Virus record (IMG/VR): IMGVR_UViG_3300025698_000002
Coordinates: 1 to 43,313 of that record
DNA length: 43,313 nt
Direction: 5' to 3' (one strand)
DNA from: a virus
In this document: positions 567-34,019 of the stretch, one piece after another
Position numbering within the stretch: the stretch's first letter is position 1
Layout of the letters: each line of letters begins with the position of its first letter
The notes under the pieces: model-generated
The model's database searches: none
What the model saw: only the letters and a program-made list of their open reading frames with translations
Told to the model about the DNA's origin: nothing
Made by a program: the position numbers and the translations under genes

Positions 567-2591
567 TCATGCGTAGTCATCCATTTTTGTAATCTTTGGC
601 TTATTCGACCAAACGTACTCTAATTTTTTAAGTCCACGTTTCTGTTCTATCGAGCCTTCATCGGGTTCTGACATAAGCCGTCTTAGGTATCCTAGCCATA
701 CGAGTGCCTCACACTGCTTCTTTATTGTGTTCTTACCGTAGTTTAGTTCTTCGTGCAGTGTTTGTACTTTGAATGGCTGTTCTGGATACTGCTTCATAAA
801 GTGAAATAGTGTGTGTCGTGCTGTGTCTCCACTGCTTTTTACTATGTTCTCTACTATGCTCTTAAATTTTTCCACGGGATACTCAGCTTCGAGTGACATC
901 AGCGACTTATAGAGCAAGTTTATCTGCTGAATCAGTCGTGTTGGAACTTCTATTGTAACTGCACCACGTAGTTCGTTAGTTTGCCTTTCCCATGAACCTG
1001 CTGCTCGAAATACTGCAAGTTCCTTACACTTTGTCATCATCCACTCTCTTAGCTCATCATCTACCTTTACTTTGGGATTAAACTTGCGATGCTCAAGATA
1101 TGACTGTACAGCCTCTTGTAAGTCCTTGTGCATCTCTGCTTCTCGTTCCATGTGCTTCATAGCCATCTGCATTTTCTTTCCATCGTTAGTTCTGCTTGAC
1201 TGTACATCGTAGGAAAACTCTCTTGTTCCTAGCTGGTTGTGTATTGCGTACTCTGCTTTTATGTCTGGTGTAGTGCATGCTATGAGTGTTACGTGACAGT
1301 TATTGTACTGTGCCTTCGTATCGTTCCCTGTCATCTTGTTTATCCTTCCATCGTACAGTTCTCGGAACTGTCCCCATATTTCATTCTTGTTATCTGTGTT
1401 TAGTGACTTAAGTGAAGCTAAATCTGAGAAACATAGAATATGACTTGCATCTTGTAGTTCTTCTCCTAAATCTGGAACTTTTTTGTTCTTATAGGTCTTT
1501 CCTGTAGCTAGAGTGTTGGGTGTGATCTGATCTATTGGCTTTACACCTGGATAGTCCTTTAGTGCACCGAGTATTTCACTCTTTGCATCTCCGCTTTCTC
1601 CTATTATAAACACCCAAATCGGCTTAGTATTCTTTGCTTGATTTGAGAGAATTGCAGCTAAAACTAGGTCTATTCTTTGTGTATCTGTAATATACAGCCA
1701 CTTTCTCAGTTTTTCATAAAGTGCCTCTAGGTTCTTCGGTGGGTGCTTTAGATCAAGGTGCTTTCGTTTGTCTACTACCTTTGCCTCTTTTACGCTTTGT
1801 TCGATGCCGTACTTGTCTTTTGCTATCTTCTTAACAATTGTAAACTTCTTTCCTTCTAGCTTTTCATCGCACTTTATTTTCTTTTCTAGTATTCCTACTA
1901 AGCTCAGTGCATCGCCACCAGAATTACATCTGAAGCAGTGCCACAGGTTTTTCTCTGTATTTATTGTGAAGTTCATGCCACCTGTTGAGCCGTGTATAGG
2001 ATGTGGTCCCTGTAGTTCCTCTCCTATTCGTTTCATGCCGTGAATCTGTCCAGCTAGCTTTGAAATGTCAATATCGTTTGATTCACCCCACTTTACTTTC
2101 TTGTCTGGTATGAAGTCTATCAGTGCTTGTCTTAGCTGCTGTTGTGTGATCTCAGCTATCTGTGTTACAATTTTTGTTTTGTATAGCTCTCCGTTAGGGT
2201 GAACTGAGCCTGAACCGATAACCTGACTTCCTACGGACTGTACTTCACCGTAGTGCTTCTTTTTATCATCCTTTAGTACAATCTTATTCTCTAGGTCCTT
2301 AATTATATAGTAATAATGATATCCACCACTCCCTGTCTGTACTACAAATGTTTTTGGTAGATTCTTTGTAACAGCTAGCTCTATCTCTTTCTCATCTGCA
2401 TCTATTACTGCTAGATTACCCTTTCCGCATAGCACACCGTATCCTTTGGCTGTTTTCAGGTACTCTATGAATATACTATCTGTGTAACTGTAGTTATTAG
2501 TATTCTGCCAGTTTTTTTCAAGTGGTATCTTCCCGTCTTTAATCTTAATGAACCTGAAGTCTACATTCTGTAGTTGTTTAGGAAGCTTCAT
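567..2591 (-). CDS. Primase-polymerase with zinc finger and AAA+ helicase domain
   Basis: A 674-residue replication protein, and the only recognisable replicase in the genome. Residues 1-165 match the archaeo-eukaryotic primase (PrimPol) fold: a DAD metal pair at 64-66, SGGYH at 88-92, and a GSGSVHPNG signature with H131. Residues 197-226 look like a CHC2-type zinc finger (H200, C219, C222, then GGD). Residues 325-480 form a helicase domain with a Walker A GESGDAKS at 331-338 and a hydrophobic strand ending in D near 385-390. It probably primes and unwinds viral DNA and then recruits a host polymerase. The C-terminal 100 residues look like a winged helix. The ATG at 2591 overlaps the stop of a 24-residue zinc protein. 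This arrangement is frequent in archaeal viruses and plasmids but also occurs in phages. Confidence 0.9.
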   Translation of the reverse strand: MKLPKQLQNVDFRFIKIKDGKIPLEKNWQNTNNYSYTDSIFIEYLKTAKGYGVLCGKGNLAVIDADEKEIELAVTKNLPKTFVVQTGSGGYHYYYIIKDLENKIVLKDDKKKHYGEVQSVGSQVIGSGSVHPNGELYKTKIVTQIAEITQQQLRQALIDFIPDKKVKWGESNDIDISKLAGQIHGMKRIGEELQGPHPIHGSTGGMNFTINTEKNLWHCFRCNSGGDALSLVGILEKKIKCDEKLEGKKFTIVKKIAKDKYGIEQSVKEAKVVDKRKHLDLKHPPKNLEALYEKLRKWLYITDTQRIDLVLAAILSNQAKNTKPIWVFIIGESGDAKSEILGALKDYPGVKPIDQITPNTLATGKTYKNKKVPDLGEELQDASHILCFSDLASLKSLNTDNKNEIWGQFRELYDGRINKMTGNDTKAQYNNCHVTLIACTTPDIKAEYAIHNQLGTREFSYDVQSSRTNDGKKMQMAMKHMEREAEMHKDLQEAVQSYLEHRKFNPKVKVDDELREWMMTKCKELAVFRAAGSWERQTNELRGAVTIEVPTRLIQQINLLYKSLMSLEAEYPVEKFKSIVENIVKSSGDTARHTLFHFMKQYPEQPFKVQTLHEELNYGKNTIKKQCEALVWLGYLRRLMSEPDEGSIEQKRGLKKLEYVWSNKPKITKMDDYA

Positions 2592-2662
2592 TTTCTTTTA
2601 CACTCCTTACAGAATAAGCCTGGTTCAGTGTGTTTCTTACCGCATGTCCAGCATACTTTCAT
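2588..2662 (-). CDS. Zinc-knuckle micro-protein (24 aa)
   Basis: A 24-codon frame with CWTC at residues 4-7 and CKEC near 18-21, ending in a basic tail. Its stop overlaps the primase start (ATGA), and its own ATG overlaps the stop of the 70-residue zinc protein upstream. Coupling on both sides and the four spaced cysteines argue that it is translated. The frame also supplies the AAGGAG ribosome site for the primase. Confidence 0.6.
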   Translation of the reverse strand: MKVCWTCGKKHTEPGLFCKECKRK

Positions 2663-2871
2663 TTCATCACCACGAACAGTTTTACCGCATGTTTCCATAT
2701 GTATTCAGATGTTTCATAGTATTTCTTCGTTGTACATTCCAGCCAACACTTACCACACACATATGTTGCATCAGGTGGTTCTCCATCAAAGTAACCACCG
2801 TAGTTTGTATATGTCTTGGCATTTTTATCACTATATGAAATGAATCTACCGCACCAATCACATCTAATCAT
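2659..2871 (-). CDS. Zinc-ribbon protein (70 aa)
   Basis: Contains CDWC at residues 4-7 and CGKC near 39-42, followed by a helical tail, so it probably binds one zinc ion. The ATG at 2871 overlaps the stop of the 37-residue gene upstream, and its stop overlaps the next ATG downstream. It lies directly before the replication gene in the same leftward transcript. No specific family is recognised. Confidence 0.75.
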   Translation of the reverse strand: MIRCDWCGRFISYSDKNAKTYTNYGGYFDGEPPDATYVCGKCWLECTTKKYYETSEYIWKHAVKLFVVMK

Positions 2872-2981
2872 TTTCGTAACCTCAACCTTCGCATCTCTGT
2901 TTGTATCTGAGCATACTCTTCAAGATCGCTTGGATTGCGATGCTCGTCAAAGTCTGTTGTACCTAGTTGTTTTTTTCTCAT
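2868..2981 (-). CDS. Small charged protein (37 aa)
   Basis: A 37-codon frame starting ATGAGAAAA and joined by ATGA overlaps to genes on both sides. It is highly charged, with a predicted helix ending in RRLRLRK. It resembles no family known to me. Coupling is the main reason to call it. Confidence 0.5.
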   Translation of the reverse strand: MRKKQLGTTDFDEHRNPSDLEEYAQIQTEMRRLRLRK

Positions 2982-3091
2982 ATCTGTGCACTATCCTTAA
3001 CAGATTTGTTAACTTCGGTGCATATCATTGTGAATCCCCCTTTGGGTTTTGCTGATCTGTGATTTGGTGGTGAACCTTTACATCTTGTCAT
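2978..3091 (-). CDS. Small protein, unknown function (37 aa)
   Basis: Starts at the ATG at 3091, seven bases after an AAGGAG site embedded in the end of the phosphoesterase gene. It overlaps that gene by 14 bases and overlaps the next gene by ATGA. The N-terminal half is rich in Pro, Gly and Lys. The function is unknown. Confidence 0.5.
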   Translation of the reverse strand: MTRCKGSPPNHRSAKPKGGFTMICTEVNKSVKDSAQI

Positions 3092-4004
3092 TACATATCT
3101 CCTTTTCTAGTCCTATATTTCCATCGTACATTTTCCCGTTAATTATACACCTTCCGTTTATTATCATTGGTGTAAAGTAGGTAAATGTTCCGTCATCCAT
3201 CATGTACCAGAATAGAAACTGATGTACCCAATGGTTAGGCTTATTTTCCATATACTCAGGGTTTATGTTGCATAGACATCCTACACCTACACACTGCTTT
3301 GGAAGTGAGTATATTGGTGTTATACCTGTGTATACTTGTGGTGTATGTACGTGTCCAACGAAGATCATCTTTTGAACGATACTAAGTGTCTTTTCAGAGA
3401 AGTACTTGTTCCAGTACATTCCGTGTGCAAAGTACATGTCGCCTATGTTGAATATGTCATTGAATGGTATTATCGTATAGTCATCAAGCTTGAGGTTTGC
3501 TTCCAGTTCGATGAACCCCTCAAACTGTGTTGTTTTCTCTATCAGTCGTTCAATTCGATACTCGTGGTTTCCTACCATAAAGAACTTCTTACATCTTTTT
3601 GGTATTGCATCCTCAAATCTATCAAGTATATTTACTTGAAATCCAATGTACTCTCGTTTTATTCGTTTTCCTTCAATCAGCTTTGGTTTTCTAATGTTAA
3701 AGGATGATATTGTGTCCATTTGCATCTGGTCGCCACCGTATACTAGGTAGTTAGGCTTAAAGTCCCTTAGAAACTGCTCTATGACGTTCATACAGGCTTT
3801 ATCGTGTACAGGGTAGTGTATATCAAATAAAGCAACGCCTCTCGACTTGTACTTTATACCTGTGTTCATCTCAGCGTATGCTCTGCAATAGAATCGTGCT
3901 GTTGTTTCTGGTATATCAGCAAGCTTAGCAAGTTCCTTTCTTCCAATTTGAGGATTCTTCTGAATGTACTGCATTACGTGATTTGGGATTAGTTTCTTTT
4001 TCAT
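3078..4004 (-). CDS. Calcineurin-like metallophosphoesterase with N-terminal HTH
   Basis: A 308-residue protein. Residues 8-45 look like a helix-turn-helix (IGRKELAKLADIPETTARFY). The rest carries the ordered metallophosphoesterase motifs: D-x-H at 61-63 (FDIHYP), GGDQ near 90-93, GNHE near 146, and GHVH near the C-terminal third. It should coordinate two metal ions and cleave phosphoester bonds. Plausible substrates are DNA ends or small nucleotides, which is inference. The HTH fusion suggests it acts on or near DNA. It starts at an ATGA overlap with the upstream 82-residue gene, between the primase and the candidate small terminase. Confidence 0.85.
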   Translation of the reverse strand: MKKKLIPNHVMQYIQKNPQIGRKELAKLADIPETTARFYCRAYAEMNTGIKYKSRGVALFDIHYPVHDKACMNVIEQFLRDFKPNYLVYGGDQMQMDTISSFNIRKPKLIEGKRIKREYIGFQVNILDRFEDAIPKRCKKFFMVGNHEYRIERLIEKTTQFEGFIELEANLKLDDYTIIPFNDIFNIGDMYFAHGMYWNKYFSEKTLSIVQKMIFVGHVHTPQVYTGITPIYSLPKQCVGVGCLCNINPEYMENKPNHWVHQFLFWYMMDDGTFTYFTPMIINGRCIINGKMYDGNIGLEKEICNDKM

Positions 4005-7124: not shown

Positions 7125-8489
7125 ATGACATTACTTGATAAAATAGATGCCATTAAAGAGAAGTACTACTCTCGTTCATCTAACTCAGAATCTAAGACAG
7201 AGCCAAAAGCTGACCCTGCATTTCAAAGTTCAGAATACGATGCAGCTAATCGTAAGTACAGTTCAGAGAACTTTACACCTGAAAGGCGTAGGAAATTAGC
7301 ACACGCTGCACCAATTTATATAAAGGGTATAAAGAAAAAGAGTTCTGATACATTCAGGGCTGGCATTAAAATTGAACGACCATTTACACAAGTTAAAGCA
7401 GCAGACTTTGATTTAAAGCTCATTGCTGCATTCAATAGACACTCAAGAATATGGAGTAAGCTCAGAATTGCCGATAGATGTTCTCACATATACGGTGATG
7501 GGCTTATGCTAATAAAGTACCTAAATGACAATAAGGATGGTGTTCATGGTTCACCTGATCTTACATTACCAGCACCACAGGGTGCTAAACCATACGATCT
7601 TGACCTACTAAACCCTGAATCAGTATACGAAGTTGCATGGTATGAAGATGACAAGAGACACAATTGGAAAAAACTTAACATTCAGCACTATCATCTTAAA
7701 GCAAAGGGCGGTGGTGAAAGATACATTCATCCAGATAGAGTTCTGTGTGCATCAAGAAATCAACTCCCATTTCAAAAGCTAGGAACATCTGATATAGATA
7801 TTCTTGCTGATATTCTAAACTCATACGCTGATATCAATATAGCTACTGGTGAAATACTAAAGTGGTTTTCACATGGTATTATTAATGTTACAAAAGACGG
7901 CATGGGTAAAGAAGAACGTGAAGAACTACTAAAAGAACTATCCAAGCATAACAACATATACGCTAATGATTCAAGGTATACCATAGAGATAATTAAGGGT
8001 GAGGCAATAGACCCAAGAGCATTCTATGATTTTATACTACAGAATATTGCTGGTGTTATTGGAATGCCTACACATATGCTAACTGGTGTTGTAGTTGGAA
8101 GGTCTAGCGGTGCTGAAACTGGATATGCTGACTACTATCGTGATGTTCGAGATGACCAAGATTTAATGTACACTTCACTTCTCATTAAACTATACAGTCA
8201 GCTATTAAAAGCATGGGGTAGAGAGTTCACATATGATATTATGTGGAATCAGATTTACATTGATGAAAAAGCAGAGGGTGACATTGATAAGGTTCGTGCC
8301 GAATCTGTACAAATACTAAAAAATGCTGGAATTATTGACAATAAGGAAGCACGACACAAGATGAACAAGGGCTATATAGAACTGGATGTAAATAAGGTAA
8401 TAAAACAACCAGTACAAAAGCCACTTGGACCAGCTACAAATAAACCAAAGGATAAGGAAAAGAAAGATGATGCTGAGGAAAAAACATGA
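7125..8489 (+). CDS. Portal protein
   Basis: A 454-residue protein directly after the large terminase with an AAGGAGATATTAAAATG start. Segments such as YGDGLMLIKY, the ordered crown and stem helices, and the tract AGVIGMPTHMLTGVVVGRSSGAETG near residues 305-330 are typical of portal proteins of the DUF1073/SPP1-like type. It should form the dodecameric ring at one capsid vertex. The C-terminus is a charged tail rich in Lys, Asp and Glu. An endonuclease remnant begins immediately at its stop. Confidence 0.88.
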   Translation: MTLLDKIDAIKEKYYSRSSNSESKTEPKADPAFQSSEYDAANRKYSSENFTPERRRKLAHAAPIYIKGIKKKSSDTFRAGIKIERPFTQVKAADFDLKLIAAFNRHSRIWSKLRIADRCSHIYGDGLMLIKYLNDNKDGVHGSPDLTLPAPQGAKPYDLDLLNPESVYEVAWYEDDKRHNWKKLNIQHYHLKAKGGGERYIHPDRVLCASRNQLPFQKLGTSDIDILADILNSYADINIATGEILKWFSHGIINVTKDGMGKEEREELLKELSKHNNIYANDSRYTIEIIKGEAIDPRAFYDFILQNIAGVIGMPTHMLTGVVVGRSSGAETGYADYYRDVRDDQDLMYTSLLIKLYSQLLKAWGREFTYDIMWNQIYIDEKAEGDIDKVRAESVQILKNAGIIDNKEARHKMNKGYIELDVNKVIKQPVQKPLGPATNKPKDKEKKDDAEEKT

Positions 8490-8628
8490 ATCAGAGTTAA
8501 TTGATTGGCATCATATTAATGATGCTTATGTCGTTGCATTACCAAGAGATTTACATTGCTTATATGGTGGTAAATTTCATAGAGAAAAAATTATGGAAAT
8601 AGTAAAACAATTTTATCTAGTGGATTAA
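8488..8628 (+). pseudogene. Remnant of an HNH homing endonuclease (C-terminal 46 residues)
   Basis: Read in frame from 8488, this gives the C-terminal HNH part of the endonucleases at 22160 and 23449. The shared signature is WHHIND, then VALPRDLH, then GKFHRE and a final KQ-aromatic helix. There is no start codon of its own and no N-terminal half. The frame differs from the portal frame. It lies exactly between the portal stop and the next gene, as expected if an inserted homing gene decayed. It might still be translated as a tiny peptide, but no ribosome site supports that. Confidence 0.8.
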
Positions 8629-8630
8629 AG

Positions 8631-9005
8631 ATGTCTTTAACTGTTACTGGTTTAAGTGAAGTAGTACGATTTAACAAAAACATATCAAACAATAAAAAGT
8701 ATGAACAGATGATGACTGACATAGTGAGAGATACGGTTTCTCTTATGTTGAGGAGAGCACCTGTTGATACTGGTAGACTACGTGATAACATATACTGGAT
8801 AAAACAAGGTAATGGTCAGTACAAAATATATGTCGCTGTTCCATACGCATACTATATGGAGTATGGGTTCAGTGGATTTGACATTGGAACGATTGAACAA
8901 CCAAAGTATATGAAGTCAGGTTATCATCCGTTTATGAGATCAAGCGTTTGGGAAATGAATAAGATATTCCCTTGGTACTTAAATAAAAACGTATTTAACA
9001 AGTAA
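8631..9005 (+). CDS. HK97 gp10-like head-tail protein
   Basis: A 124-residue protein with the family signature APVDTGRLRDNI near 41-52, and PYAYYMEYG near 71-79. Members of the HK97 gp10 family sit at the head-tail interface or in tail completion. Here it lies unusually early, right after the portal, separated only by the endonuclease remnant. The ATG at 8631 has no strong ribosome site, so its translation may have been altered by the insertion. Confidence 0.8.
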   Translation: MSLTVTGLSEVVRFNKNISNNKKYEQMMTDIVRDTVSLMLRRAPVDTGRLRDNIYWIKQGNGQYKIYVAVPYAYYMEYGFSGFDIGTIEQPKYMKSGYHPFMRSSVWEMNKIFPWYLNKNVFNK

Positions 9006-9792: not shown

Positions 9793-10635
9793 ATGGACAT
9801 ACTCTCATCGAACAGAGAGAAAAAACTACTTAAGCTAGGTATTTCTCTTGCTCGAACAAAGCTTGGTAAAAGGGCATCAACTACAGCTATCCATGATGAA
9901 CTCATAAATAGCAATCAGCCTTTCATACGCAAGACTGCAATCACAATTAAAAAGATACACGATAGTATTCCAGATAGGATGGCGTGGCAAAAAAGCGTTA
10001 TTTCGGAAGTTGGTGAATTTGTACTATGGTGTACAATTCATCATCCTAAGTATAGAAATATTATTCTAGCCATGCACGATGAGATGTTTAACGATAGTGA
10101 ACTATCATTTAAATATACTGATTGGGTATTTAGTAAGGTAGACATATATCTTGCTGATTTAATATTAAAGTATACATACAACAAGATATACGATAAGAAA
10201 CTAACAGAGAACTTCGTTACAAATATGAACCTGGCAAAGTTTAGTAATCCAGTAGTAGCAAAGTTTAATGATGTCATTACTAAAGCAATCAATGAAAGCT
10301 GCACAGAAAATGAAGTGGATAGGTATATACTATTCTCACGTTTATTACTGTACATAGTGATGCACGATACCGCTTATCGTGATGTGTTCTTTTGGGGAAC
10401 ATATCAACTTGCAAATAAGTTAACTAAAAAAATGGTAGAGCCATACTATGTACCTCTCAACAAATGTTACTTGAAGTTGTATGTAGATGCCAAGGTACAC
10501 ACAGAAAAACTTAAAGAAAAAGGAGTTCTAGCTGATTACGATAAATCACTACCAGAAAAGTACTGTGTTCCAAGGGCTAGGCAAAAGCACATTCAAAGAA
10601 TTATAAATGGTGGCAAGAAAAATGCTGAAAAATAA
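9793..10635 (+). CDS. Head-module protein, unknown (280 aa)
   Basis: A 280-residue, mainly helical protein starting six bases after the previous stop. It contains an aromatic helical core (EVGEFVLWCTIHHPKYR) and a basic C-terminus. Its end overlaps the start of the probable protease gene by up to 29 bases. It has no recognised domain. A minor head protein is a reasonable guess from position alone. Confidence 0.7.
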   Translation: MDILSSNREKKLLKLGISLARTKLGKRASTTAIHDELINSNQPFIRKTAITIKKIHDSIPDRMAWQKSVISEVGEFVLWCTIHHPKYRNIILAMHDEMFNDSELSFKYTDWVFSKVDIYLADLILKYTYNKIYDKKLTENFVTNMNLAKFSNPVVAKFNDVITKAINESCTENEVDRYILFSRLLLYIVMHDTAYRDVFFWGTYQLANKLTKKMVEPYYVPLNKCYLKLYVDAKVHTEKLKEKGVLADYDKSLPEKYCVPRARQKHIQRIINGGKKNAEK

Positions 10636-11398
10636 GAAAAGGATTGATACTATAGAATATGAGGAAGGTAAGCTATACCCATTCAAGTTCGACTGTCCAT
10701 CTGTTGACTTTGCTTTTGATGCTGATGGTAAGTTTATGGCATCAAGTGAGAAAGGATACAATATGGTTGTTGCCATAGGTAACAGATTTATGAACGGGGT
10801 ATACGTATCAAATAAGGTACTAAAGGATGCCAATAAGGGATTCAACAACACACCACATGATATGAATCATATGGGTACTGGTTATCAGGCTGGAGTGTTT
10901 ACAAGAGTACCAGCAGATATTTCGTATGTTGTTGGATATCAAGATAATCTACACTTTGATAATGAAAGTGGTGAAATTAGAGCAACCACGCACATTAGCG
11001 AAACTGCTGTGCGGTATGCTGAATGGAAAAGCTATGTTGATATATGTGCTAAAATGGGTAGAACACCCAATGTAAGTATGTTTGCAACTGGTAAAATTGA
11101 GTATATCGAAGCACGTAAGTTACCAAAGGGTAGTCACTATGGACAGCATGGTTATGCTGCTGCTGATTTAGTTCCTTGTATGGCTGAACTAAACCCTGTT
11201 GCTGTATCTACTGTATTTACTGGTGCTTGCAGTGATCGGGATGGTTGTGGTTTAGCCAATACGTATGAGGATGAAAAGTATAATTCAAATGAAGAAGATG
11301 AGGATGAAAAACAATTGCAATCCTTGATGGATGCCAAAAAAAGAGCATATATGGAAAAACGAATAAAAGATTTGAATGGAGAAGAGAAAAATGACTAA
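10607..11398 (+). CDS. Probable prohead protease / scaffold
   Basis: A 263-residue protein immediately before the capsid gene, the standard place for the maturation protease. A histidine-rich motif (NTPHDMNHMG, about residues 83-92) and a later NVSMFATG motif (near 155-162) match the His and Ser positions of the herpesvirus-type prohead protease fold. The C-terminus is an acidic, lysine-rich helical tail like a scaffolding segment. ACSDRDGCG near 206 adds a cysteine pair. An alternative start at 10622 has a better ribosome site (GGTGG). The family assignment is by motif and position. Confidence 0.6.
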   Translation: MVARKMLKNKKRIDTIEYEEGKLYPFKFDCPSVDFAFDADGKFMASSEKGYNMVVAIGNRFMNGVYVSNKVLKDANKGFNNTPHDMNHMGTGYQAGVFTRVPADISYVVGYQDNLHFDNESGEIRATTHISETAVRYAEWKSYVDICAKMGRTPNVSMFATGKIEYIEARKLPKGSHYGQHGYAAADLVPCMAELNPVAVSTVFTGACSDRDGCGLANTYEDEKYNSNEEDEDEKQLQSLMDAKKRAYMEKRIKDLNGEEKND

Positions 11399-12722
11399 AG
11401 AACAGTCAACAGAAGAAGTTGAGGCTGAGTATAGAGCTACACTTCTAAGGAAAACAAATGCCATGAAAGCAGAAGAAGAACGACTTGATAAGGTCGCTGC
11501 TGACGAAAAAATGGTAACAGATGCAGAAGCTGCAAAGGTTCAACGCATAGCTGAGATTCAAGAAGTAGTCGAAGCGTTAAAACCAAAAGCAACAGAAATA
11601 GATATTTCTGCTGGCGACCTTCCAATGGTAGACCCTGCTATTGACAATCAGGGTGCAGATGGTAAGGGTGGTTCAGCGTACACCAATGCAAAAACTCAGA
11701 AAGAAGTAGATTGGATGGAAGCATTCTTGAAGAGAAACGACTACAGTAGAACAGAGTATGCAAGTACTGATTTTTTACATGGTGCTGGTGCAAGTGAGTA
11801 TGCGTTCACTGAGTCTGATAGTGGTTGTGGAGATGATGTTTCTGCATGGACACCTGCTGATGTATGGTGTAACTCAATCTGGTATGCTGCACAGTGCGGT
11901 AGGCAACTTTCTGGTGTTGTAACTATGAGAGCCTGTGATATCAAAGCAGGCGATGGACTTGCTGTACAGATCAGAACTATATCTGCTGATGCTGGTATAG
12001 GTAATGCTCTTGGTCCTTGTGAGTGTGCATCGTGTGTTGGTAACACGTTTGATACACATACGCTTACCTTGCAAAGATTCGATATATACAAAGTAGCATG
12101 TAACCTGGATTTATTCAGCGTTGGACCTATACTCAAAGAATCTATGATTCAAACTATGGCTGATGCTTTTATTGCTGGTATTGATGCTGCGATATATACA
12201 GCACTTAGTGGTGCTACACCTGGACAATCTGAACAACTAGCTAGTGATGCTGCATGTGAACCAGCTGAACCTACTGATGGTACATGCTGCAGATTTGCTG
12301 CAAATCTGTATAGAGAAATTATACAGTTAGAGGCAACTATGCGTGCTGCTGGATACGGTAAGAAAGGATTTAAGTTAATTTTACATCCTACTGTTGCTTT
12401 GTATTTAAAGTACAAAGAAGGAGTGAACCCCCCACCTTGGGTAAACAACATCGTAATGGAAGGCAATGTACTAGCAAAAGTTGGTAGTATTGAGGTTATC
12501 GAGTATTGTGGTGCAACCGCTTGTACTGATTTGAGTGAAGCAGTAGTTGGAATTTTACTTGACCCAACACGAGCAGTTGGTGAAGCATACGGTAAAAAAC
12601 CATCCCTCAAAATAGATGAGGACCCAATTGAATGTGACAGCATGAAATACGTTATGAGAAGTTACTTCGCAGTTTCGGCTCTTGACTTAAACGCTATCGG
12701 TCACATCATAAACCCAACCTAA
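11391..12722 (+). CDS. Major capsid protein, HK97 fold, cysteine-rich
   Basis: A 443-residue protein. The start at 11391 is preferred over 11376 because GGAG lies about 9 bases upstream. The first 75 residues are a charged coiled-coil segment of the kind removed as a delta domain. The rest fits an HK97-type capsid protein, including a C-terminal region with LILHPTVALYLKYKEG and a final SALDLNAIGHI. It is unusual in having 14 cysteines, among them CECASC near residue 206 and a CC pair. Typical HK97 capsid proteins have few. A hairpin and T-rich stretch directly follow the gene. Confidence 0.85.
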   Translation: MTKEQSTEEVEAEYRATLLRKTNAMKAEEERLDKVAADEKMVTDAEAAKVQRIAEIQEVVEALKPKATEIDISAGDLPMVDPAIDNQGADGKGGSAYTNAKTQKEVDWMEAFLKRNDYSRTEYASTDFLHGAGASEYAFTESDSGCGDDVSAWTPADVWCNSIWYAAQCGRQLSGVVTMRACDIKAGDGLAVQIRTISADAGIGNALGPCECASCVGNTFDTHTLTLQRFDIYKVACNLDLFSVGPILKESMIQTMADAFIAGIDAAIYTALSGATPGQSEQLASDAACEPAEPTDGTCCRFAANLYREIIQLEATMRAAGYGKKGFKLILHPTVALYLKYKEGVNPPPWVNNIVMEGNVLAKVGSIEVIEYCGATACTDLSEAVVGILLDPTRAVGEAYGKKPSLKIDEDPIECDSMKYVMRSYFAVSALDLNAIGHIINPT

Positions 12723-12731
12723 ACATGAAAT

Positions 12732-12759
12732 AGGGAGTTAATCTCCCTCTATATTCTTT
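12732..12759 (+). terminator. Hairpin terminator or attenuator after the capsid gene
   Basis: AGGGAG, a five-base loop, and CTCCCT make a perfect six-pair stem ten bases after the capsid stop, followed by a T-rich stretch. It probably terminates part of the transcription or protects the 3' end of a highly expressed capsid message. A TATA-like GATATATA at about 12765-12772 follows and could restart transcription for the nuclease gene. Confidence 0.6.
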
Positions 12760-12808
12760 AATGCTGATATATACGGTATTTACTCTGTTCGATTCGGAGT
12801 GTCGGCTT

Positions 12809-13456
12809 ATGTCATTTAAAATTGTAGAACCAGTAGAGTTCTTATGTGAAAGTAATTACTATCTAATAAATGGTACGAAATATCCAAGAGTAACAAGAGT
12901 AAAGAGTATCATTAGCAATCCAGGGTTAGTTAACTGGCAAATTGCTGTTGGTAAAAAGAAAGCAAATGATATTATGAAAACTCGTGGTGATTTCGGTACA
13001 AGTATTCATAAGCTAATAGAACTCACACTAGATGGTAAAGCTATAGACCTTTCAAACTACGATGAAGAAACAAATGTTACGATGAAGCTATTTGATGATT
13101 TTACAACTGACCATGATGTAAAACCTAAGCTACTTGAACAACATCTATGGCTGGACCTTTCAAAAGACTATAGATACGCTGGTACTGTCGATTTCGTTGG
13201 ATATGTCGATGGTAAGCTAATGATCTTGGATTGGAAAACATCCAAAGCAATCTACGATGACTACTGGTTACAGCTAGCTGCATATATCGTTGCACTAGAA
13301 GCACTGACAGGTGAGAGAGTAGATTCTTGCGGAATACTTCATATTCGTGATGGTAAAAAGAAGTTTGTAGTAAAGTCATACAAAGAAATGATGGATGAGT
13401 TTAAGGTATTCAAAGCGTGTCTAGTGGTATATAATAGGTATAGGGTTAAGAAATGA
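12809..13456 (+). CDS. PD-(D/E)XK nuclease, RecB/Cas4-like
   Basis: A 215-residue protein starting at MSFKIVEP behind CGGAGTG. It carries the ordered exonuclease motifs: GTSIHKLIE (about 63-71), an E and D pair in the strand region (YAGTVDFVGYVDG), the catalytic DWKTSK motif, and a final QLAAYIVALE. Family members are metal-dependent DNA exonucleases in recombination. It is odd to find it between the capsid gene and the connector gene, after a terminator. It may process packaged or recombining DNA. Longer upstream starts exist but lack a ribosome site. Confidence 0.85.
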   Translation: MSFKIVEPVEFLCESNYYLINGTKYPRVTRVKSIISNPGLVNWQIAVGKKKANDIMKTRGDFGTSIHKLIELTLDGKAIDLSNYDEETNVTMKLFDDFTTDHDVKPKLLEQHLWLDLSKDYRYAGTVDFVGYVDGKLMILDWKTSKAIYDDYWLQLAAYIVALEALTGERVDSCGILHIRDGKKKFVVKSYKEMMDEFKVFKACLVVYNRYRVKK

Positions 13457-14481
13457 AGAAATATTTAATAGCAAACATCTGTGAGGGTGTTGAAGGTGGA
13501 ATATATCTTCGTGATGATTCATATTACGCTTGTGTTAGCTTAAGAAATAGTCAGTGTGAAGGTGGCATTTCTGTTATCACTGATGCAACACTAAAGATAA
13601 CCATAAGCAATCCATGTGGTACAGATTTAATAACTGAACAGGATATGACACACTCCGAAACATTAGACGGTACATATGCATACTGCTATGAACTAGCAGA
13701 TGATGCACTGTACGGAGAGTATGATGTTGAGATCGAGGTTACATCACCAAGTGATTGTATTACAAGAGTGCATGATAATTTCTTCGTGCTTCCTTGGGAT
13801 ATGACAAAGCACATACGAAGATTACTAGGTAGCGATTCAAAGACAATTGACGATCACGAGCTTGCTGAAATGGCATGGTATGCGTATGTTGAAGTACGTG
13901 ATAGAGCACTGGAACTTCAGTACAGAGAAAAGCTATGCTGTTGTGCTGATGGTATATGCTCATGCTGTGGTAATATTGAGTGCGATTGCATATGCGGTAC
14001 AAGTTCACCAACTACATGTACAATATGGAAACTAAACAACTTCCCAATTGCTGATTTCAATAACGATGATAATATTCACGGCTGCGAATGCGATGATACC
14101 AGTGAGGATTGTCAAAATGATGTATGTGTGATCTGGAAAGACAGCGATGGTGAGTGTCAAGCTGGTGCTGTTAAGGTAGAGCACGCTGACTGTGGTGAAA
14201 TAAAGGTATATCAATCAGATTGTGTTACGGCAATTCCATCAACAAACAAGGGTATATTTGTAACATACCATTCAACGTGGAAAACATTTACAATGCCTAA
14301 GTTCAAAAAAGCAGTTGCTTATCTTGCTGCATACGAGTTAGCGGTTAGATTTAACTTAGTATCAAAGAGTGTGCCTGGTTGTAACGAGCATTCTAAAGTT
14401 TCGTTTACTAAAATGCTATGGGAAAGATATCAAGTTATACTTGATTCTATCATAAAACCCTCATTCAGTGGGGTAGACTGA
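13453..14481 (+). CDS. Cysteine-rich head-tail connector candidate (342 aa)
   Basis: A 342-residue protein overlapping the nuclease stop by ATGA. It contains 24 cysteines, ten of them in one tract of about 29 residues near position 160 (CCCADGICSCCG and onwards). The N-terminal ~115 residues look like a beta-sandwich. The helical stretches near 117-155 (MTKHIRRLLG) and the C-terminal AVAYLAAYELAVRF helix resemble head-completion proteins of the gp6/gp15 type. The cysteine tract sits between these helical parts like an insertion. It could bind metal or form a disulfide-crosslinked knob on the connector. The function is inferred from position. Confidence 0.6.
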   Translation: MKKYLIANICEGVEGGIYLRDDSYYACVSLRNSQCEGGISVITDATLKITISNPCGTDLITEQDMTHSETLDGTYAYCYELADDALYGEYDVEIEVTSPSDCITRVHDNFFVLPWDMTKHIRRLLGSDSKTIDDHELAEMAWYAYVEVRDRALELQYREKLCCCADGICSCCGNIECDCICGTSSPTTCTIWKLNNFPIADFNNDDNIHGCECDDTSEDCQNDVCVIWKDSDGECQAGAVKVEHADCGEIKVYQSDCVTAIPSTNKGIFVTYHSTWKTFTMPKFKKAVAYLAAYELAVRFNLVSKSVPGCNEHSKVSFTKMLWERYQVILDSIIKPSFSGVD

Positions 14482-14966
14482 TGGCATACACGGCATTTGA
14501 TCCTAGAAAAGCAATACGCACTTCAATAAAAAGTGCAGATTTCTTTGTGCATGGGAAAGTAGAAGAGTGTATATCGGTAGTCGATAAAAACGGAAATCCG
14601 TTGCATGTCCCAATGTTCGTTGAAGAGGAAGTTGCTGTTGAGTGTCCACCATATCCGTATATAGAAATTAGTTTACTATCAATACCAGCAGAACCTCATA
14701 ATATTAAGGCAACAGTAAGGAAACACACATGCTTAGTAGCATTCGATATAAAGTTTACTAACGATGACAATAACGATGTTACGTCATTTGGAAAAAAAGT
14801 GGCTGACGTAATAGTACATCAAACGAGAACATACCAGTGCACTACAACTGGTGTTGACTTTATGAACGTGCACAATCAAGGTAGGATACACATTGAGCAT
14901 AACTGTGAAGATGCAATACTTCACTGGATAATGGAACTACAGGCAAACTACAATGATGCCTGTTAA
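14481..14966 (+). CDS. Tail completion / terminator protein candidate (161 aa)
   Basis: Overlaps the previous stop (TGATGG). Residues suggest an alpha-beta fold with a beta-strand core (YPYIEISLLSIPAEPHN, KHTCLVAFDIKF) as in tail terminator proteins that cap the tube and join it to the head. It lies directly before the tail tube gene, the usual position. Identity is by position and secondary-structure pattern only. Confidence 0.55.
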   Translation: MAYTAFDPRKAIRTSIKSADFFVHGKVEECISVVDKNGNPLHVPMFVEEEVAVECPPYPYIEISLLSIPAEPHNIKATVRKHTCLVAFDIKFTNDDNNDVTSFGKKVADVIVHQTRTYQCTTTGVDFMNVHNQGRIHIEHNCEDAILHWIMELQANYNDAC

Positions 14967-15003
14967 AATTAGAATAAAAAAAGATTAAAGGAGAAGAAAA
15001 ATA

Positions 15004-15945
15004 ATGGCTGAATTAGGAATGCCCTTCCAGGGCGACTTATGGTACTTCGTACAAGATGATTACGATACCTGTCCAACAGACGGTGATACGACCTATGCTA
15101 TATCATGTAAGATATTAGATGCAAAAGTTGGTATTGCTGACAAGCACGAAGAAATACGTGGTATCTCTTCGGCATGTGCATGTGATTTACATGAACTTGC
15201 AAATGACTACACATTCCATCTCGAATTTCATCCTCAGTGTGATAGTATCGACTTTATAGAGCACATTGTTGATAGAGATGCAAACTGCAAACTACAACCA
15301 CTAGGTTTTAGTCTATCAACTAACACCTGTGTCGCTGCTGCTGGTGATAAAACTTGTTTTCTTATTTGCGGTTGTAAACCAAAGACCGTTAGAATAAGTG
15401 CTGCATTCAATCAGTACTACACAATTACTGCTGATTTTTCTGCAAAAACTGTTATAACTGATGGTGATGCTTTATTCCCTGCTACTGCTGATTCGTCTGG
15501 TGTTGGTGATGCACCTGCTGATCTCGTTGGTGCTTACCTAGGATTTAATGTTGGTGGTTCAATACAAAAGGATGCCAATGATGTTGCACACATACTCGAC
15601 AGCTTTGATGTAACAGTAGATCATGGATTAAAAGATAAGTGGGACCACGATTCGCTTACTAAACAGTATGCGATAGAAGGAACACTTGGTATTTCAGGTA
15701 CTTGTGACATATCACTTGATGAGGGTGGTGGAGTGCATTTGGCTGAAGTTGTCAATCAAACCGAGTTCGATCTAGTTATAGACCTTGGCGGTGCTGGTTG
15801 TCCACGACTTACATTTACAGGATGCAAGTGGAAAACATCCGAGATAGATGTGAACATATCAGGTGATGATATGATGGAATCTGCACCTTGGACCTGTCAT
15901 CCAGACACATGTGCTGCTGGATTTATATCTGCAACACCTGAGTAA
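15004..15945 (+). CDS. Tail tube protein, cysteine-rich
   Basis: A 313-residue protein with strong expression signals: AAAGGAGAAGAAAAATAATG before it and a terminator after it. The sequence pattern (a DAKVGIADKHEEIRG segment, then an acidic tract with YTFHLEFHPQ) resembles tail tube proteins of long-tailed viruses, as does its place before the two chaperone frames and the tape measure. It has 15 cysteines, including CACD at a position where related proteins usually have none. Together with the capsid and connector it points to disulfide or metal cross-linking in the virion. Confidence 0.75.
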   Translation: MAELGMPFQGDLWYFVQDDYDTCPTDGDTTYAISCKILDAKVGIADKHEEIRGISSACACDLHELANDYTFHLEFHPQCDSIDFIEHIVDRDANCKLQPLGFSLSTNTCVAAAGDKTCFLICGCKPKTVRISAAFNQYYTITADFSAKTVITDGDALFPATADSSGVGDAPADLVGAYLGFNVGGSIQKDANDVAHILDSFDVTVDHGLKDKWDHDSLTKQYAIEGTLGISGTCDISLDEGGGVHLAEVVNQTEFDLVIDLGGAGCPRLTFTGCKWKTSEIDVNISGDDMMESAPWTCHPDTCAAGFISATPE

Positions 15946-22159: not shown

Positions 22160-22594
22160 ATGGTAGATATAAAGAATTATCACAAACAATATTATTTAAA
22201 AAATACAAATAAAATATTGCAAGAATCAAAAACTTATCAACAATCTAAAAAGGGAAAAATAACATTAAGACGATATGACCAATCGGAAAAAGGTAAAATA
22301 AGAACAATACGATATACACAATCTAAAAAGGGAAGAGCATCTCAAAAAAGAAGGCGTGATATGTATCGACAGACAAAAAAGTGGAAAATAGCAAAAGCAA
22401 AAAGGAATCGAAATTTTGGTTGGATACTCATGTTTCCAAACCCATTTGCTACATCCGAAATTGTAGAGTATCATCACATTAATGATGCATATGTAATTGC
22501 ATTACCTAAAGATTTACATCATCAATATATGGGTAAATTTCATAGAGAAAAAACTATGGAAATAGTAAAACAAATATATTTAGGAGATAATTAA
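22160..22594 (+). CDS. HNH homing endonuclease with basic repeat region
   Basis: A 144-residue free-standing endonuclease between two tail genes. Residues 10-85 are very basic, with a repeated YxQSxKGK unit (three copies about 17 residues apart), probably a DNA-binding array. The C-terminus is an HNH nuclease: EYHHIND, then ALPKDLHH, then GKFHRE. A remnant of the same family lies after the portal gene and a second intact copy at 23449. It probably cuts genomes lacking the insert and spreads by repair. The base composition is more AT-rich than the neighbouring tail genes. Confidence 0.85.
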   Translation: MVDIKNYHKQYYLKNTNKILQESKTYQQSKKGKITLRRYDQSEKGKIRTIRYTQSKKGRASQKRRRDMYRQTKKWKIAKAKRNRNFGWILMFPNPFATSEIVEYHHINDAYVIALPKDLHHQYMGKFHREKTMEIVKQIYLGDN

Positions 22595-23448: not shown

Positions 23449-23982
23449 ATGAATCATGCTGAATATCAAAAACAATGGTATCATTCTCATCCAGGATATT
23501 ATACAAAATATAGGAATGAAAGGTATTTAAAAAATAGAATGGCAATTTTGAAACAGCAAAAAGGATATAATCAATCCGAAAAAGGAAAGGTTGTACATAA
23601 AAAAGCATATTTGAAATATGCCCATTCGAAAAAAGGGCAAAAGAAAATTAAAGAGTGGACATCAAAACATAAATCAGAATCAAATGCTAAATATTATCAA
23701 AAGAATAAAGAGAAATGCAAAATTAAATGTTCGGCATATAAAAAAACAGATAAGGGTAAAATGACAGTTAGTAAAATGATGGCAAAACGAAAACGTAATT
23801 TGGGATTTATATCATTGTTCGATAACCCATTCGATAAATCAGAATTAATAGATTGGCATCATGTTAATAACGATGACGTTGTTGCGTTACCAAGGGATTT
23901 ACATAGACATTTTCAAGGTAAATTCCATAGAGAAAATTTAATATACATAATAAAACAAATATATATGATGGAGATGATGTAA
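23449..23982 (+). CDS. HNH homing endonuclease, second copy
   Basis: A 177-residue relative of the 22160 gene. It has a longer basic repeat region (NQSEKGK, AHSKKGQ and KKTDKGK units) and the C-terminal HNH domain DWHHVNN, VALPRDLH, GKFHRE. It sits between the fibre gene and the next tail gene with only seven bases before it. It is close in sequence to the decayed copy after the portal (both read SELIDWHH). Confidence 0.85.
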   Translation: MNHAEYQKQWYHSHPGYYTKYRNERYLKNRMAILKQQKGYNQSEKGKVVHKKAYLKYAHSKKGQKKIKEWTSKHKSESNAKYYQKNKEKCKIKCSAYKKTDKGKMTVSKMMAKRKRNLGFISLFDNPFDKSELIDWHHVNNDDVVALPRDLHRHFQGKFHRENLIYIIKQIYMMEMM

Positions 23983-26370: not shown

Positions 26371-27486
26371 CTATTTACAGTATTTTTTGTAAAAAGTCCA
26401 GGGTACTAGCTTAAAAGCACTGAGTATCCAAAAGAACCACCTGAATGTTTTAAAAAATCTATGGTATGTCTTAAAATCATAGTGTGTTTTTATGTGACCT
26501 GTTATCAATGAGCTAACATTGATTCGTAACTCATTTTCAACTCTATTTACCAGTTTCTTATTGATTGGTACTTCTTTTTCTAGTTCAGCTATTGCATTCT
26601 GTCTTGTCATGTTACCTGAACGTACAAGTGCAGCGTACTCAATTTTTCTTCGATCAGTTTCAAACTTACGTGGAAACATTACATTACCAAGGAACGCTGT
26701 GTACTCATTGTCTAGGTGATGTCCACCGTACCACTTAAAATCATAGAGATCACTAAGTACCTTTATCATAGTCTCTTTTTTAATGTCAACATGGTACAGT
26801 GGTCTAATGTGCTTGATTCTTTTTATTACAATCCAGTACAGCCACTTACGTAACCATAGGTTAGGCATATTCTTTGTTGCGTTTGGTATCCTACCGTATT
26901 TTTCATGTACATCTTTAATGTACCTTGCATCCATGTAGCACCATGATAGAGGACATATACCCTCTGTTCTAAAGTTGTGACCGTTCAGTATGTACTTCAC
27001 ATTATACTTATTGGCAACCTCATACACTGCTGCTGTTGCAGCCATGTCGTATGATATGTCACAGTCTTGAGAACCAGAGGATAAGAATGCTCTGTTAATA
27101 TCATTTACAAGGTTCTTATTAAATTTCCAGTGTACTGCATCAAATGGTATGTGCTCGTGTAGTTTTTTCATGTTATCTTCTGCGATCTTACCGTTCCATC
27201 CGTTATCATAGTGGACCGCTAGTATTCGTAGTCCAAGTAGGCTTGCCATGTGTATTAGGTACGTAGAATCACATCCACCACTGTATCCTATGACAACATC
27301 GTAGTTACTCTTTCGTTGTTTTTTTCTTATTTTTTCTCCCATTTTGACAAGTTCATCGTATCCTTCCATACCACCTGGATACTGCTTGCATAGGTTTTCG
27401 TATATTTTACAGAAGTTACATATGCCATCATCATCTAGTGTAACATCATCTATGTCGTCTGTCAGTGTACACTTTTTACATCTCAT
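26371..27486 (-). CDS. N-acetyl sugar amidotransferase (WbpG-like)
   Basis: A 371-residue protein matching the N-acetyl sugar amidotransferase family. The N-terminus has paired cysteines (CKKC at 3-6, CNFC near 23-26) that should bind zinc. The ATP-binding PP-loop motif GYSGGCDST follows near 68-76. In known pathways WbpG-type enzymes turn an acetamido group into an acetamidino group, using ammonia from a separate glutaminase. No glutaminase is present here, so one may come from the host. It is the last gene of leftward operon II, beside an oxidoreductase, a glycosyltransferase and an acyltransferase. Confidence 0.85.
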   Translation of the reverse strand: MRCKKCTLTDDIDDVTLDDDGICNFCKIYENLCKQYPGGMEGYDELVKMGEKIRKKQRKSNYDVVIGYSGGCDSTYLIHMASLLGLRILAVHYDNGWNGKIAEDNMKKLHEHIPFDAVHWKFNKNLVNDINRAFLSSGSQDCDISYDMAATAAVYEVANKYNVKYILNGHNFRTEGICPLSWCYMDARYIKDVHEKYGRIPNATKNMPNLWLRKWLYWIVIKRIKHIRPLYHVDIKKETMIKVLSDLYDFKWYGGHHLDNEYTAFLGNVMFPRKFETDRRKIEYAALVRSGNMTRQNAIAELEKEVPINKKLVNRVENELRINVSSLITGHIKTHYDFKTYHRFFKTFRWFFWILSAFKLVPWTFYKKYCK

Positions 27487-27488
27487 TT

Positions 27489-27587
27489 TTATTTCTCCAT
27501 TTTTCTACAAAAAAGGTAGAATGCAATAGCAAAGTATGCCATTGCTAGTGTTAGTACAAGAATGGCTGCACCTATTTCTTCTATCAT
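27489..27587 (-). CDS. Single-pass membrane mini-protein (32 aa)
   Basis: A 32-codon frame, almost all of it one membrane helix (ILVLTLAMAYFAIAFYLF), overlapping the previous stop by ATGA. Its end carries the GGAG site for the amidotransferase. The coupling and hydrophobicity suggest a real small membrane protein, perhaps anchoring the glycan enzymes. This is inference. Confidence 0.5.
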   Translation of the reverse strand: MIEEIGAAILVLTLAMAYFAIAFYLFCRKMEK

Positions 27588-28315: not shown

Positions 28316-28331
28316 TATGTAACAACTCCCA

Positions 28332-29486: not shown

Positions 29487-29494
29487 TACTGTTT

Positions 29495-31169: not shown

Positions 31170-31294
31170 TCTTTAACTCTCCAAGCTTTAAATACTAAAG
31201 GTTTTTTGTTCCTCATATCTATAACTAAGAAATTATAATCTACCTGCATTAATAATTCTTTTGATATTAAATCTTTTATTTCTTCTTTGTTCAT
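31166..31294 (-). CDS. Small protein, unknown (42 aa)
   Basis: A 42-codon frame joined to both neighbours by ATGA overlaps. A helical N-terminus is followed by strands (YNFLVIDMRNKKPLVFKAW). No family is recognised. It is called on coupling and on filling an otherwise empty gap. Confidence 0.55.
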   Translation of the reverse strand: MNKEEIKDLISKELLMQVDYNFLVIDMRNKKPLVFKAWRVKE

Positions 31295-31758
31295 TTTTTC
31301 AACCCATAATGTTTAGCAAAGTATTTTTCTAATGTTTTTCTGCTGGTAAATACAATTCTAGCGTGTTGTTTTATCCAAGGATGCCCTGCCCATTTCTTTG
31401 TGATGACGTAGACGGGTATTCTAAGCACTCTAGCAGCATAAAATATCTCCATAGGTGTTCCTATTCTAACATCATGTGCAAACGCTACAATACCATCACT
31501 TTGTCTAATCTTTTTTAGGTCATCTTCGACAATATCATATGAACTTCTCGATGATAGATAGTCACGTTGTTTTCTGCCACCTTCTTTCAAATTGTCCAAT
31601 GTTTCCATTTCACTTGCCCTATCTGGATTATCATAAAATGGATTATCCAAATTTACGTTGTATTTGCCCTCTATCTTTAATTCCCATTTTCTTAATGTTT
31701 TTCTAGTTAGGAAATTATGTGCTAAATAGAGGGTTTTAATTTCGCATTTTCTTTTCAT
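31291..31758 (-). CDS. Nucleoside 2-deoxyribosyltransferase-like protein
   Basis: A 155-residue protein of the nucleoside deoxyribosyltransferase superfamily. The typical N-terminal strand (TLYLAHNF) is followed later by IVEDDLKKIRQSDGIVAF and GTPMEIFYA, where the glutamate of the GT-ME motif is the expected nucleophile. Members cleave or exchange the base of deoxynucleosides, and some act in nucleotide salvage or base modification. It is a probable nucleotide-pool enzyme of the virus. Confidence 0.8.
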   Translation of the reverse strand: MKRKCEIKTLYLAHNFLTRKTLRKWELKIEGKYNVNLDNPFYDNPDRASEMETLDNLKEGGRKQRDYLSSRSSYDIVEDDLKKIRQSDGIVAFAHDVRIGTPMEIFYAARVLRIPVYVITKKWAGHPWIKQHARIVFTSRKTLEKYFAKHYGLKK

Positions 31759-31762
31759 TTAA

Positions 31763-32023
31763 TTACCTCTTATATTTCAACAACAAACGTAATATCATTA
31801 TAGTTACTATCATTTCAATACTAACAACTGCAAATGATAGCAACAAATTGGTCATTGAAAAACATATTAATGAGCAAAGTATTGCTAATATTTTAAGTTT
31901 GTAATGTGTCATGCTTATTGCTTTTGTGTGATGAGTTGTATGTATTTTATGAAATTGTTTTAATGTTGCAATGAGAAAGAAAGTCATCGCCATCATTCCA
32001 AATATATCTGCTATTGGTATCAT
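31763..32023 (-). CDS. Three-helix membrane protein, SemiSWEET/PQ-loop-like
   Basis: An 86-residue protein with three hydrophobic helices. The first helix (IFGMMAMTFFLIATLKQFHKI) leads into a HTKAISM turn, like the first helix and loop of SemiSWEET and PQ-loop sugar transporters, in which a short three-helix unit dimerises. The third helix ends in a basic tail. SemiSWEETs normally have about 85-95 residues, so the length fits. It could move a small sugar or act as a membrane partner. The start overlaps the HNH endonuclease stop. Confidence 0.6.
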   Translation of the reverse strand: MIPIADIFGMMAMTFFLIATLKQFHKIHTTHHTKAISMTHYKLKILAILCSLICFSMTNLLLSFAVVSIEMIVTIMILRLLLKYKR

Positions 32024-32471: not shown

Positions 32472-33278
32472 TTAAAGATACCTATTACCATCATCAGGTA
32501 ATACAGTTAGTATTCTTTTGTACTTATTTTTTATAACAGTTGAAGCATAGTAGTTTGCACCGCTAGATATTCCACAGTGTATACCGTGCTTTTGTGCTAA
32601 CCACCTTGCAGTTTCAATAGCCTTTTCTTTGGTGACTAGGATACTGTTTATTTGCAAACCTCTAGGTATAAGAGAAAGTTTAACTCCATCACAAATACCC
32701 TCGATATTTTCATCGTAAAGAACTTGAATGGTGAATACCTCTGCGTGAGGAAATACACTGTGCAATCCCATAAGTGTTCCACCTGTTCCAACACCAGCTA
32801 CTATTGCATCAAATCCAGTTATACGACCATGACTATTAAATGCCTCACTTGCCATGTTGATTTGTGCCTTTAGATTGTTTTTGTTATTAAACTGGTCAAG
32901 ATAGTGATGATTTTTACCACTACACCACACCTTCGCACTGTCAACACACTCTGTAATTGTATCGTACACATCGTATACCTTAGCACCGTATGCTTTCATC
33001 ATCTCCACTTTAACCCTACTTGTACTCATTGGTGTGCATATCTTGCACTTTAAACCAAGTGTTGCACATACCATAGCTATTGATACACCTGTATTCCCAC
33101 TTGTCGCTTCAACTATTGTAGTACGACTATTGCAATTATTGTTGTTGTCATAATCAAGTATCATTGCTTTTGCTACTCTATCCTTAATACTTCCACTTGG
33201 GTTGAACATCTCTAACTTGAAGTAAATATTGTCTATGTTCATAAGCGGAGTATTTCCTATTTTGTTTAGTATGTTCAT
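32472..33278 (-). CDS. Cysteine synthase (PLP-dependent, CysK/CysM family)
   Basis: A 268-residue enzyme making cysteine from an activated serine and sulfide. It has the PLP-binding lysine K32 in NPSGSIKDR, the TSGNTG loop at 59-64, the glycine loop GVGTGGT at 162-168, and GISSGAN near 236-242, where the serine contacts the PLP ring nitrogen. It is shorter than typical members (about 300-310) and stops right after LPDDGNRYL, lacking the usual tail. All catalytic elements are intact, so it is probably active. Several virion proteins in this genome are cysteine-rich, which may explain why it is carried. It is flanked by a homing endonuclease. Confidence 0.92.
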   Translation of the reverse strand: MNILNKIGNTPLMNIDNIYFKLEMFNPSGSIKDRVAKAMILDYDNNNNCNSRTTIVEATSGNTGVSIAMVCATLGLKCKICTPMSTSRVKVEMMKAYGAKVYDVYDTITECVDSAKVWCSGKNHHYLDQFNNKNNLKAQINMASEAFNSHGRITGFDAIVAGVGTGGTLMGLHSVFPHAEVFTIQVLYDENIEGICDGVKLSLIPRGLQINSILVTKEKAIETARWLAQKHGIHCGISSGANYYASTVIKNKYKRILTVLPDDGNRYL

Positions 33279-33472: not shown

Positions 33473-33506
33473 TATACAACTCCTTTTTCTTTTATTGTGT
33501 ACATAG

Positions 33507-33578: not shown

Positions 33579-33608
33579 AAAAATAAAGTTAGGGGATGAA
33601 CCCTAAAA

Positions 33609-34019
33609 TTACTCACGATCTACTTCGATCTTGTATGTGTATGATTCACCACGTTTTCCTTTTACCATACCAAGGAATGTGATTCGTACTTTGTTGCCTA
33701 TTATCACTGGTAGTTTAACTGACTGTTTCTCTTTGAGTATAGGTACACCATCTTGGTCCTTTATGAAGTCTCCTTTTTCGTTTGTTTGAAGTTCGTATCC
33801 CATTAGTCTACGCAGATTTCCATTACCTGTTGCTATAAGTGGCTCTTCAGATTTTTTTGATTGTAACTCAAATATATAACCATACTTGTCTGATGGTTTA
33901 ATGTTCAGTATGAGGAACTCTTCTGGTTTGTCCTCAAGTACAATATATGAGTTTTCTTTTGCCTTTTTTTTACCCCAAGCAATAAACTTACCGCTTTGTT
34001 CTTGTTCTTGATATGTCAT
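33609..34019 (-). CDS. Unknown protein, possible OB-fold (136 aa)
   Basis: A 136-residue beta-rich protein with regular strands (IATGNGNLRRLMGYELQ, KLPVIIGNKVRITFLGMV) and a final YTYKIEVDRE. The pattern resembles small viral single-strand-binding or gene-regulating OB proteins, but there is no diagnostic motif. It follows a cluster of small replication-era genes. The call is structural only. Confidence 0.6.
   Translation of the reverse strand: MTYQEQEQSGKFIAWGKKKAKENSYIVLEDKPEEFLILNIKPSDKYGYIFELQSKKSEEPLIATGNGNLRRLMGYELQTNEKGDFIKDQDGVPILKEKQSVKLPVIIGNKVRITFLGMVKGKRGESYTYKIEVDRE

Follow-up and report, generated by a model that had tools for sequence, protein, structure and literature searches.

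The stretch of DNA analysed here, hereafter the window, is the whole of IMG/VR virus record IMGVR_UViG_3300025698_000002 (43,313 nucleotides). It is a near-complete genome of a tailed virus of the siphovirus type, one of a group of little-known tailed viruses of bacteria or archaea. The same 42 bases stand in direct repeat at its two ends (1-42 and 43272-43313), which makes it probable that the contig is complete and maps as a circle. Its genes run in the order terminase, portal, protease, capsid, an order kept in the relatives; terminase and portal are named by family match and the protease by position. A head-tail connector candidate and a tail tube gene follow on the same strand, and a gene for a cysteine-synthase-type enzyme lies on the other (Table 1). 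Our subject is the cysteine in the virion proteins and what it has to do with that enzyme. A preliminary description of this DNA proposed that the virus makes extra cysteine to build particles stabilised by disulfides or bound metal. We believe a looser form of this idea has about an even chance (0.5) of being right: the HK97-fold capsid is stabilised by disulfides, or by metal, and the synthase is a helpful, replaceable supply gene.

Table 1. Features of the window discussed in the text, with the basis for each assignment.
Feature	Coordinates	Strand	Basis or remark
Major capsid protein, HK97 fold	11391..12722	+	Cysteine counts, fold model, alignment of relatives
C-x-C-x-x-C motif, capsid residues 210-215	12018..12035	+	No variation in 20 relatives; falls in the predicted E-loop, where the model has low confidence
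Head-tail connector candidate	13453..14481	+	Function by gene position only
Tail tube protein, T5/P74-26 type	15004..15945	+	PF18906 match, structure model
Cysteine-synthase-type pyridoxal phosphate enzyme (CysK/CysM superfamily)	32472..33278	-	PF00291, key residues present
Capsid-maturation protease candidate, 5 cysteines	10607..11398	+	By position, directly upstream of capsid gene
PD-(D/E)XK / Cas4-like exonuclease	12761..13456	+	Between capsid and connector genes
Small virion-module protein, 6 cysteines	14481..14966	+	Probable tail-completion type, by position
fam3, conserved gene flanking synthase locus	31291..31758	-	Window copy without Pfam match
fam2, small membrane-protein candidate	31763..32023	-	Adjoins or lies near synthase in 7 genomes
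fam0, conserved small gene, one flank of synthase locus	33609..34019	-	7 genomes

The cysteine counts of the preliminary description are exact: 14 in the 443 residues of the capsid protein (3.2%), 24 in the 342 of the connector candidate (7.0%) and 15 in the 313 of the tail tube (4.8%), with the ten-cysteine stretch of the connector covering 28 residues. All three proteins exceed the rest of the window, where cysteine makes up 1.62%: the binomial probability is 0.015 for the capsid protein, 3.5e-9 for the connector candidate and 2.3e-4 for the tail tube. When 29 control viral loci (1.21%) serve as the reference, the capsid protein has a probability of 0.0012, the connector candidate 1.1e-11 and the tail tube 8.8e-6. 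The premise that capsids and tubes are usually cysteine-poor also holds for the phages compared. The HK97 capsid, which shares the fold of the window capsid, differs from it in having 1 cysteine in 385 residues, and the virion genes of phages sk1, Q54 and 1706 stand at 0.05-0.36%. One could argue that the cysteines have no structural role and merely mirror a cysteine-rich host proteome, and the whole proteomes of the clade are indeed somewhat cysteine-rich (1.4-2.4%). However, not one of the 961 residues of the tape measure is a cysteine (P 1.5e-7), so no genome-wide compositional bias lies behind the cysteine-rich virion proteins, and the portal has 0.4% versus the 3-7% of capsid, tube and connector. 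Ten of the capsid cysteines are moreover invariant at a mean identity of about 45%. We regard the host explanation as largely refuted and very improbable.

The relatives come from IMG/VR records gathered by terminase and capsid searches and later by a synthase search; their terminases are about 43-52% identical to that of the window, a few nearer copies excepted. The pattern used in the A4 capsid scan contained C-x-C-x-x-C and so was biased toward cysteine-rich capsids, but the terminase scan is free of this bias, and wherever it led to a capsid homologue that homologue was cysteine-rich too. When 20 capsid proteins are aligned, ten cysteines are invariant in all 20; two more, C169 and C373/374, are shared by 19 of the proteins and are both missing from the remaining one, G019. 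The conserved sites are C146, C169, C210, C212, C215, C237, C289, C299, C300, C373, C378 and C415. In a set of 18 capsids (mean pairwise identity 45%) invariance is 70% for cysteine versus 32% for tryptophan and 14% for glycine. By this alignment the capsid cysteines are old and strongly selected. Those that do vary fall into sets with identical patterns, {160,182}, {131,398} and {374, C-terminal} (P=0.0004), of which C160/C182 is the lineage-specific pair found in the window. The control for this and the other paired-cysteine P value given below was frequency-matched other residues, which removes shared ancestry only in part. With the last two genomes added, capsid 288 too follows the nine-genome pattern of 374 plus a C-terminal cysteine. 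Paired gain and loss fits the pattern predicted for disulfides, and the capsid cysteines most likely serve as disulfide cross-links.

The competitor for this role is metal. The conserved cysteines of capsid and connector could bind zinc or an iron-sulfur cluster instead of forming disulfides, with the C-x-C-x-x-C of the capsid and the C-x-C repeats of the connector as thiolate ligands. Cysteines spaced as closely as C-x-C often bind metal, C210-x-C212-x-x-C215 is invariant, and the connector insert is of the C-x-C-x4-C-x-C type in G000, G047 and partly G044. However, the lineage-specific capsid cysteines pair far apart in sequence (131/398 and 160/182), as disulfides do, and Pfam gave no metal-site family save one relative's zf-C4H2 match at E 0.08. 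We consider metal binding somewhat unlikely.

The predicted structure of the capsid protein gives a Z score of 16.0 to 8em6, about 15 to encapsulins and about 13.7 to the HK97 prohead, and Pfam Phage_capsid_4 is matched by three of the relatives (best E 6e-8). The mean predicted local distance difference test score (pLDDT) of the model is only 58, so the HK97 assignment holds at the level of the fold only. The HK97 capsid cross-links by isopeptide bonds. In a hand-anchored ungapped alignment HK97 K169 is 1 residue off C215 and HK97 N356 is 1 residue off C415. This correspondence is a hint only because hhalign, comparing the capsid profile with HK97, gave it no support (probability <1).

The tube model is a two-domain fold that resembles the tail tubes of P74-26 (Z 21.4 over 288 residues) and T5 (Z 17.6). 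Its cysteines are far less fixed than those of the capsid, C274 alone being invariant in 18 sequences. Four matched pairs are present (P=0.003): C35/C303, C79/C266, C23/C122 and, in other lineages, 66/179. The ten-cysteine insert of the connector is common to the window and G047 (18 cysteines) and partly to G044 (13 cysteines), while the counterparts in the other compared relatives lack it and have 1-9 cysteines. As far as these counterparts go, only the window and a few relatives have this knot of cysteines in the connector. The capsid alignment found no match in 84,980 bacterial and archaeal species genomes, and single-protein searches of a phage collection returned 0 matches for the capsid, 0 for the tube and for the connector only 2 weak ones, both in Bacillus phage G (E about 0.9).

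We agree with the preliminary description that the synthase gene is apparently intact. The match to PF00291 is full length (E 4e-52) with zero internal stops, and the protein has K32, the TSGNTG loop, Q129, G164-T165-G167-T168 and S238, nearly all of them conserved in the clade. It looks functional by these residues. The protein is divergent and short (268 residues), shorter than the curated CysK/CysM models. It reaches 185.8 bits against NCBIfam cysKM where 344.15 are required, under the subfamily and equivalog cut-offs, so we file it as a member of the superfamily and assign no exact substrate.

Eleven clade records of at least 37 kb were found without using the synthase, and nine of them carry it (G000, G005, G007, G027, G029, G030, G031, G043 and G045), the two without a detectable synthase being G037 and G044. 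Outside this count, G047 and G053, which were found via the synthase, also carry it, and part of a synthase gene is present in the 24 kb fragment G041; the outgroup records searched had no synthase over the cut-off. In seven genomes the gene sits at one locus, between fam0 or fam5 small genes and fam2, and in G045 it sits at another site, beyond the primase. A tree of 56 sequences places the clade synthases in two lineages, {G000, G031, G047} and nine CysM-like ones (support 99/98 and 100/98), and a single origin is marginally rejected by the approximately unbiased test (p-AU 0.047). G031 is nested by its virion genes in subclade A, among genomes with the CysM-like synthase, and its own synthase, at the locus that the CysM-like ones occupy, is of the window type. 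This looks like replacement in place, which argues for selection on the enzyme activity. Selection for activity is also suggested by the share of records that carry the gene (9 of 11), by its two genomic sites and by its probable double origin. The synthase of the clade was probably acquired more than once, and such repeated acquisition fits a benefit from extra cysteine. The gene is common, replaceable and dispensable. Matches to Acinetobacter "phage" cysM sit among ordinary chromosomal genes and were discarded.

How closely are the shell and the enzyme tied? Several points weigh against the reading we favor. Outside the clade, 68 synthase-bearing viral loci have 1.23% cysteine versus 1.21% in controls (p=0.36), in a comparison that covers the cysteine of all genes and not virion genes alone. 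G037 shares 92% identity with G045 in capsid and tube and has the same cysteines (15 in the capsid, 9 in the tube), but no synthase could be detected in G037; the corresponding site is occupied by a gene whose start, as read by eye, resembles a sulfotransferase. Up to about 2.6 kb of G037 is possibly missing, and a relocated copy could sit there. G044 likewise keeps a cysteine-rich capsid and has no detectable synthase. With the same shell in both of these relatives, shell and enzyme are not strictly tied, and a tight coupling of synthase and virion is not supported. Relatives of just this kind were what the preliminary description said would refute its idea. The capsid model is also poor around the C-x-C-x-x-C motif (pLDDT <50), and the disulfides are predicted here from sequence patterns. 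What stands of the original idea is a cysteine-rich capsid that by its alignment is old and selected, with its variable cysteines paired, and a synthase that was probably acquired repeatedly.

The same facts can be read as evidence that the synthase is an ordinary gene of sulfur metabolism (for example for amino-acid supply, sulfide use or redox balance in the infected cell) unrelated to the virion, its pairing with a cysteine-rich capsid being a matter of shared ancestry. Its lack in G037 and G044 agrees with this, as does the lack of overall cysteine enrichment at synthase loci. In all, 153 viral stretches encode relatives of the synthase, and 21 of 23 such records tested are without a window-type capsid. 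Viral cysK is known elsewhere too: Mariana Trench sediment viruses resemble the window in encoding a cysteine synthase and differ in that it is reported as a single metabolic gene (PMC8725595). However, shared ancestry does not sit well with a synthase that is kept in 9 of the 11 large clade records and was probably re-acquired at the same locus, and phages of the P087 group show the same pairing independently. We take the purely metabolic explanation seriously and put it a little short of even odds.

Cysteine-cross-linked virions and viral cysK are already known separately. Agrobacterium phage Milano and its relatives have disulfide-linked virions with raised, conserved cysteines (PMC10491603, PMC10811340). 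Milano, like 7-7-1 and OLIVR4, resembles the window in the raised cysteine of its HK97-fold capsid and tail proteins; its capsid has 10 cysteines in 465 residues, its sheath 16 in 503 and its tape measure none. The window virion has this Milano-type trait, structural proteins enriched in cysteines that are conserved among relatives. Milano differs in its contractile tail and in that its disulfides have been seen by cryo-electron microscopy. No Agrobacterium phage with a synthase was named among the matches listed for phage records, which also speaks against a tight coupling.

The preliminary description knew of no virus that pairs the two traits, and this was too strong. Lactococcus phage P087 and relatives (Teubervirus) resemble the window in carrying an annotated cysteine synthase along with cysteine-raised virion genes: the protein at the capsid position has 7 cysteines in 378 residues, the adaptor 11 in 240 and the protein at the tube position 8 in 446. 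The virion genes of the synthase carriers P087 and AM6 have 1.35-1.62% cysteine versus the 0.05-0.36% of 1706, sk1 and Q54, which have no annotated synthase, in a comparison of few phages with gene roles assigned by annotation or position. This pairing counts in favor of a link between synthase and virion. The P087 synthase is unlike those of the clade: in the tree it stands among cellular CysK-like sequences and outside the two lineages of the clade. A search of the phage collection with the window capsid gave no match linking the P087 group. The limited set of literature searched has no description of such a conserved pattern of capsid cysteines combined with a repeatedly acquired synthase.

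Several neighbouring genes deserve mention. The window copy of fam2 matches the Pfam PQ-loop family weakly (E 0.0045, 17.1 bits against a cut-off of 22), and this PQ-loop or SemiSWEET candidate has no match to solved structures in the PDB; fam2 is also found in G037, G044 and G045, there beside another gene. A 113-residue protein with 7 cysteines (33275-33616) overlaps the start of the synthase gene, and its sub-threshold match to RavZ_cat is not meaningful. The protease candidate is conserved in the clade and has no family match. The exonuclease gene is kept within the capsid-connector module clade-wide. Locus L217 of G037 has a repetitive open frame with 30 cysteines (2492-3406), whose counterpart in G045 (7665-8654) has 26; both frames could be artefacts of tandem repeats and not true genes. 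Tyrosine- and lysine-rich genes related to each other lie at 22160-22594, 23449-23982 and about 8490-8630 of the window, and in loci L003 and L004 a fragment resembling both Tyr/Lys-rich genes lies between the portal and the next gene. A surface-glycan cassette at 26371-30058 has N-acetyl sugar amidotransferase-like, nucleotide-sugar dehydrogenase-like, glycosyltransferase and LpxD-like acyltransferase genes.

The mechanism we favor would run as follows. About 12 conserved capsid cysteines, most of them as disulfides, would tie together capsid segments or neighbouring subunits, with the C-x-C-x-x-C group perhaps serving as a metal site. Tube and connector would have gained further cysteines. 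Building many such particles would raise the demand for cysteine, and the cysteine-synthase-type enzyme would cover part of it, useful and non-essential, as its probable several acquisitions, its two loci and the relatives in which it was not found suggest. It is plausible that the synthase feeds particle building; the cross-linking, the enzyme activity and the use of extra cysteine in the virion are what we infer. In a bolder version, a tailed-virus lineage swapped other HK97-type capsid locks for a network of cysteine cross-links at the chain-mail sites of HK97 and repeatedly recruited synthases to meet the demand for cysteine, so that the enzyme would be maintained in order to supply one of the building materials of the particle. 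We think this version distinctly unlikely.

The usual explanation for auxiliary metabolic genes is that they supply energy or nucleotides. If such a gene were linked to the amino-acid make-up of the particle, there would be a concrete reason for its retention, and one that can be tested. The conserved capsid cysteines are a new natural case of an HK97-type shell that is possibly stabilised by disulfides or metal.

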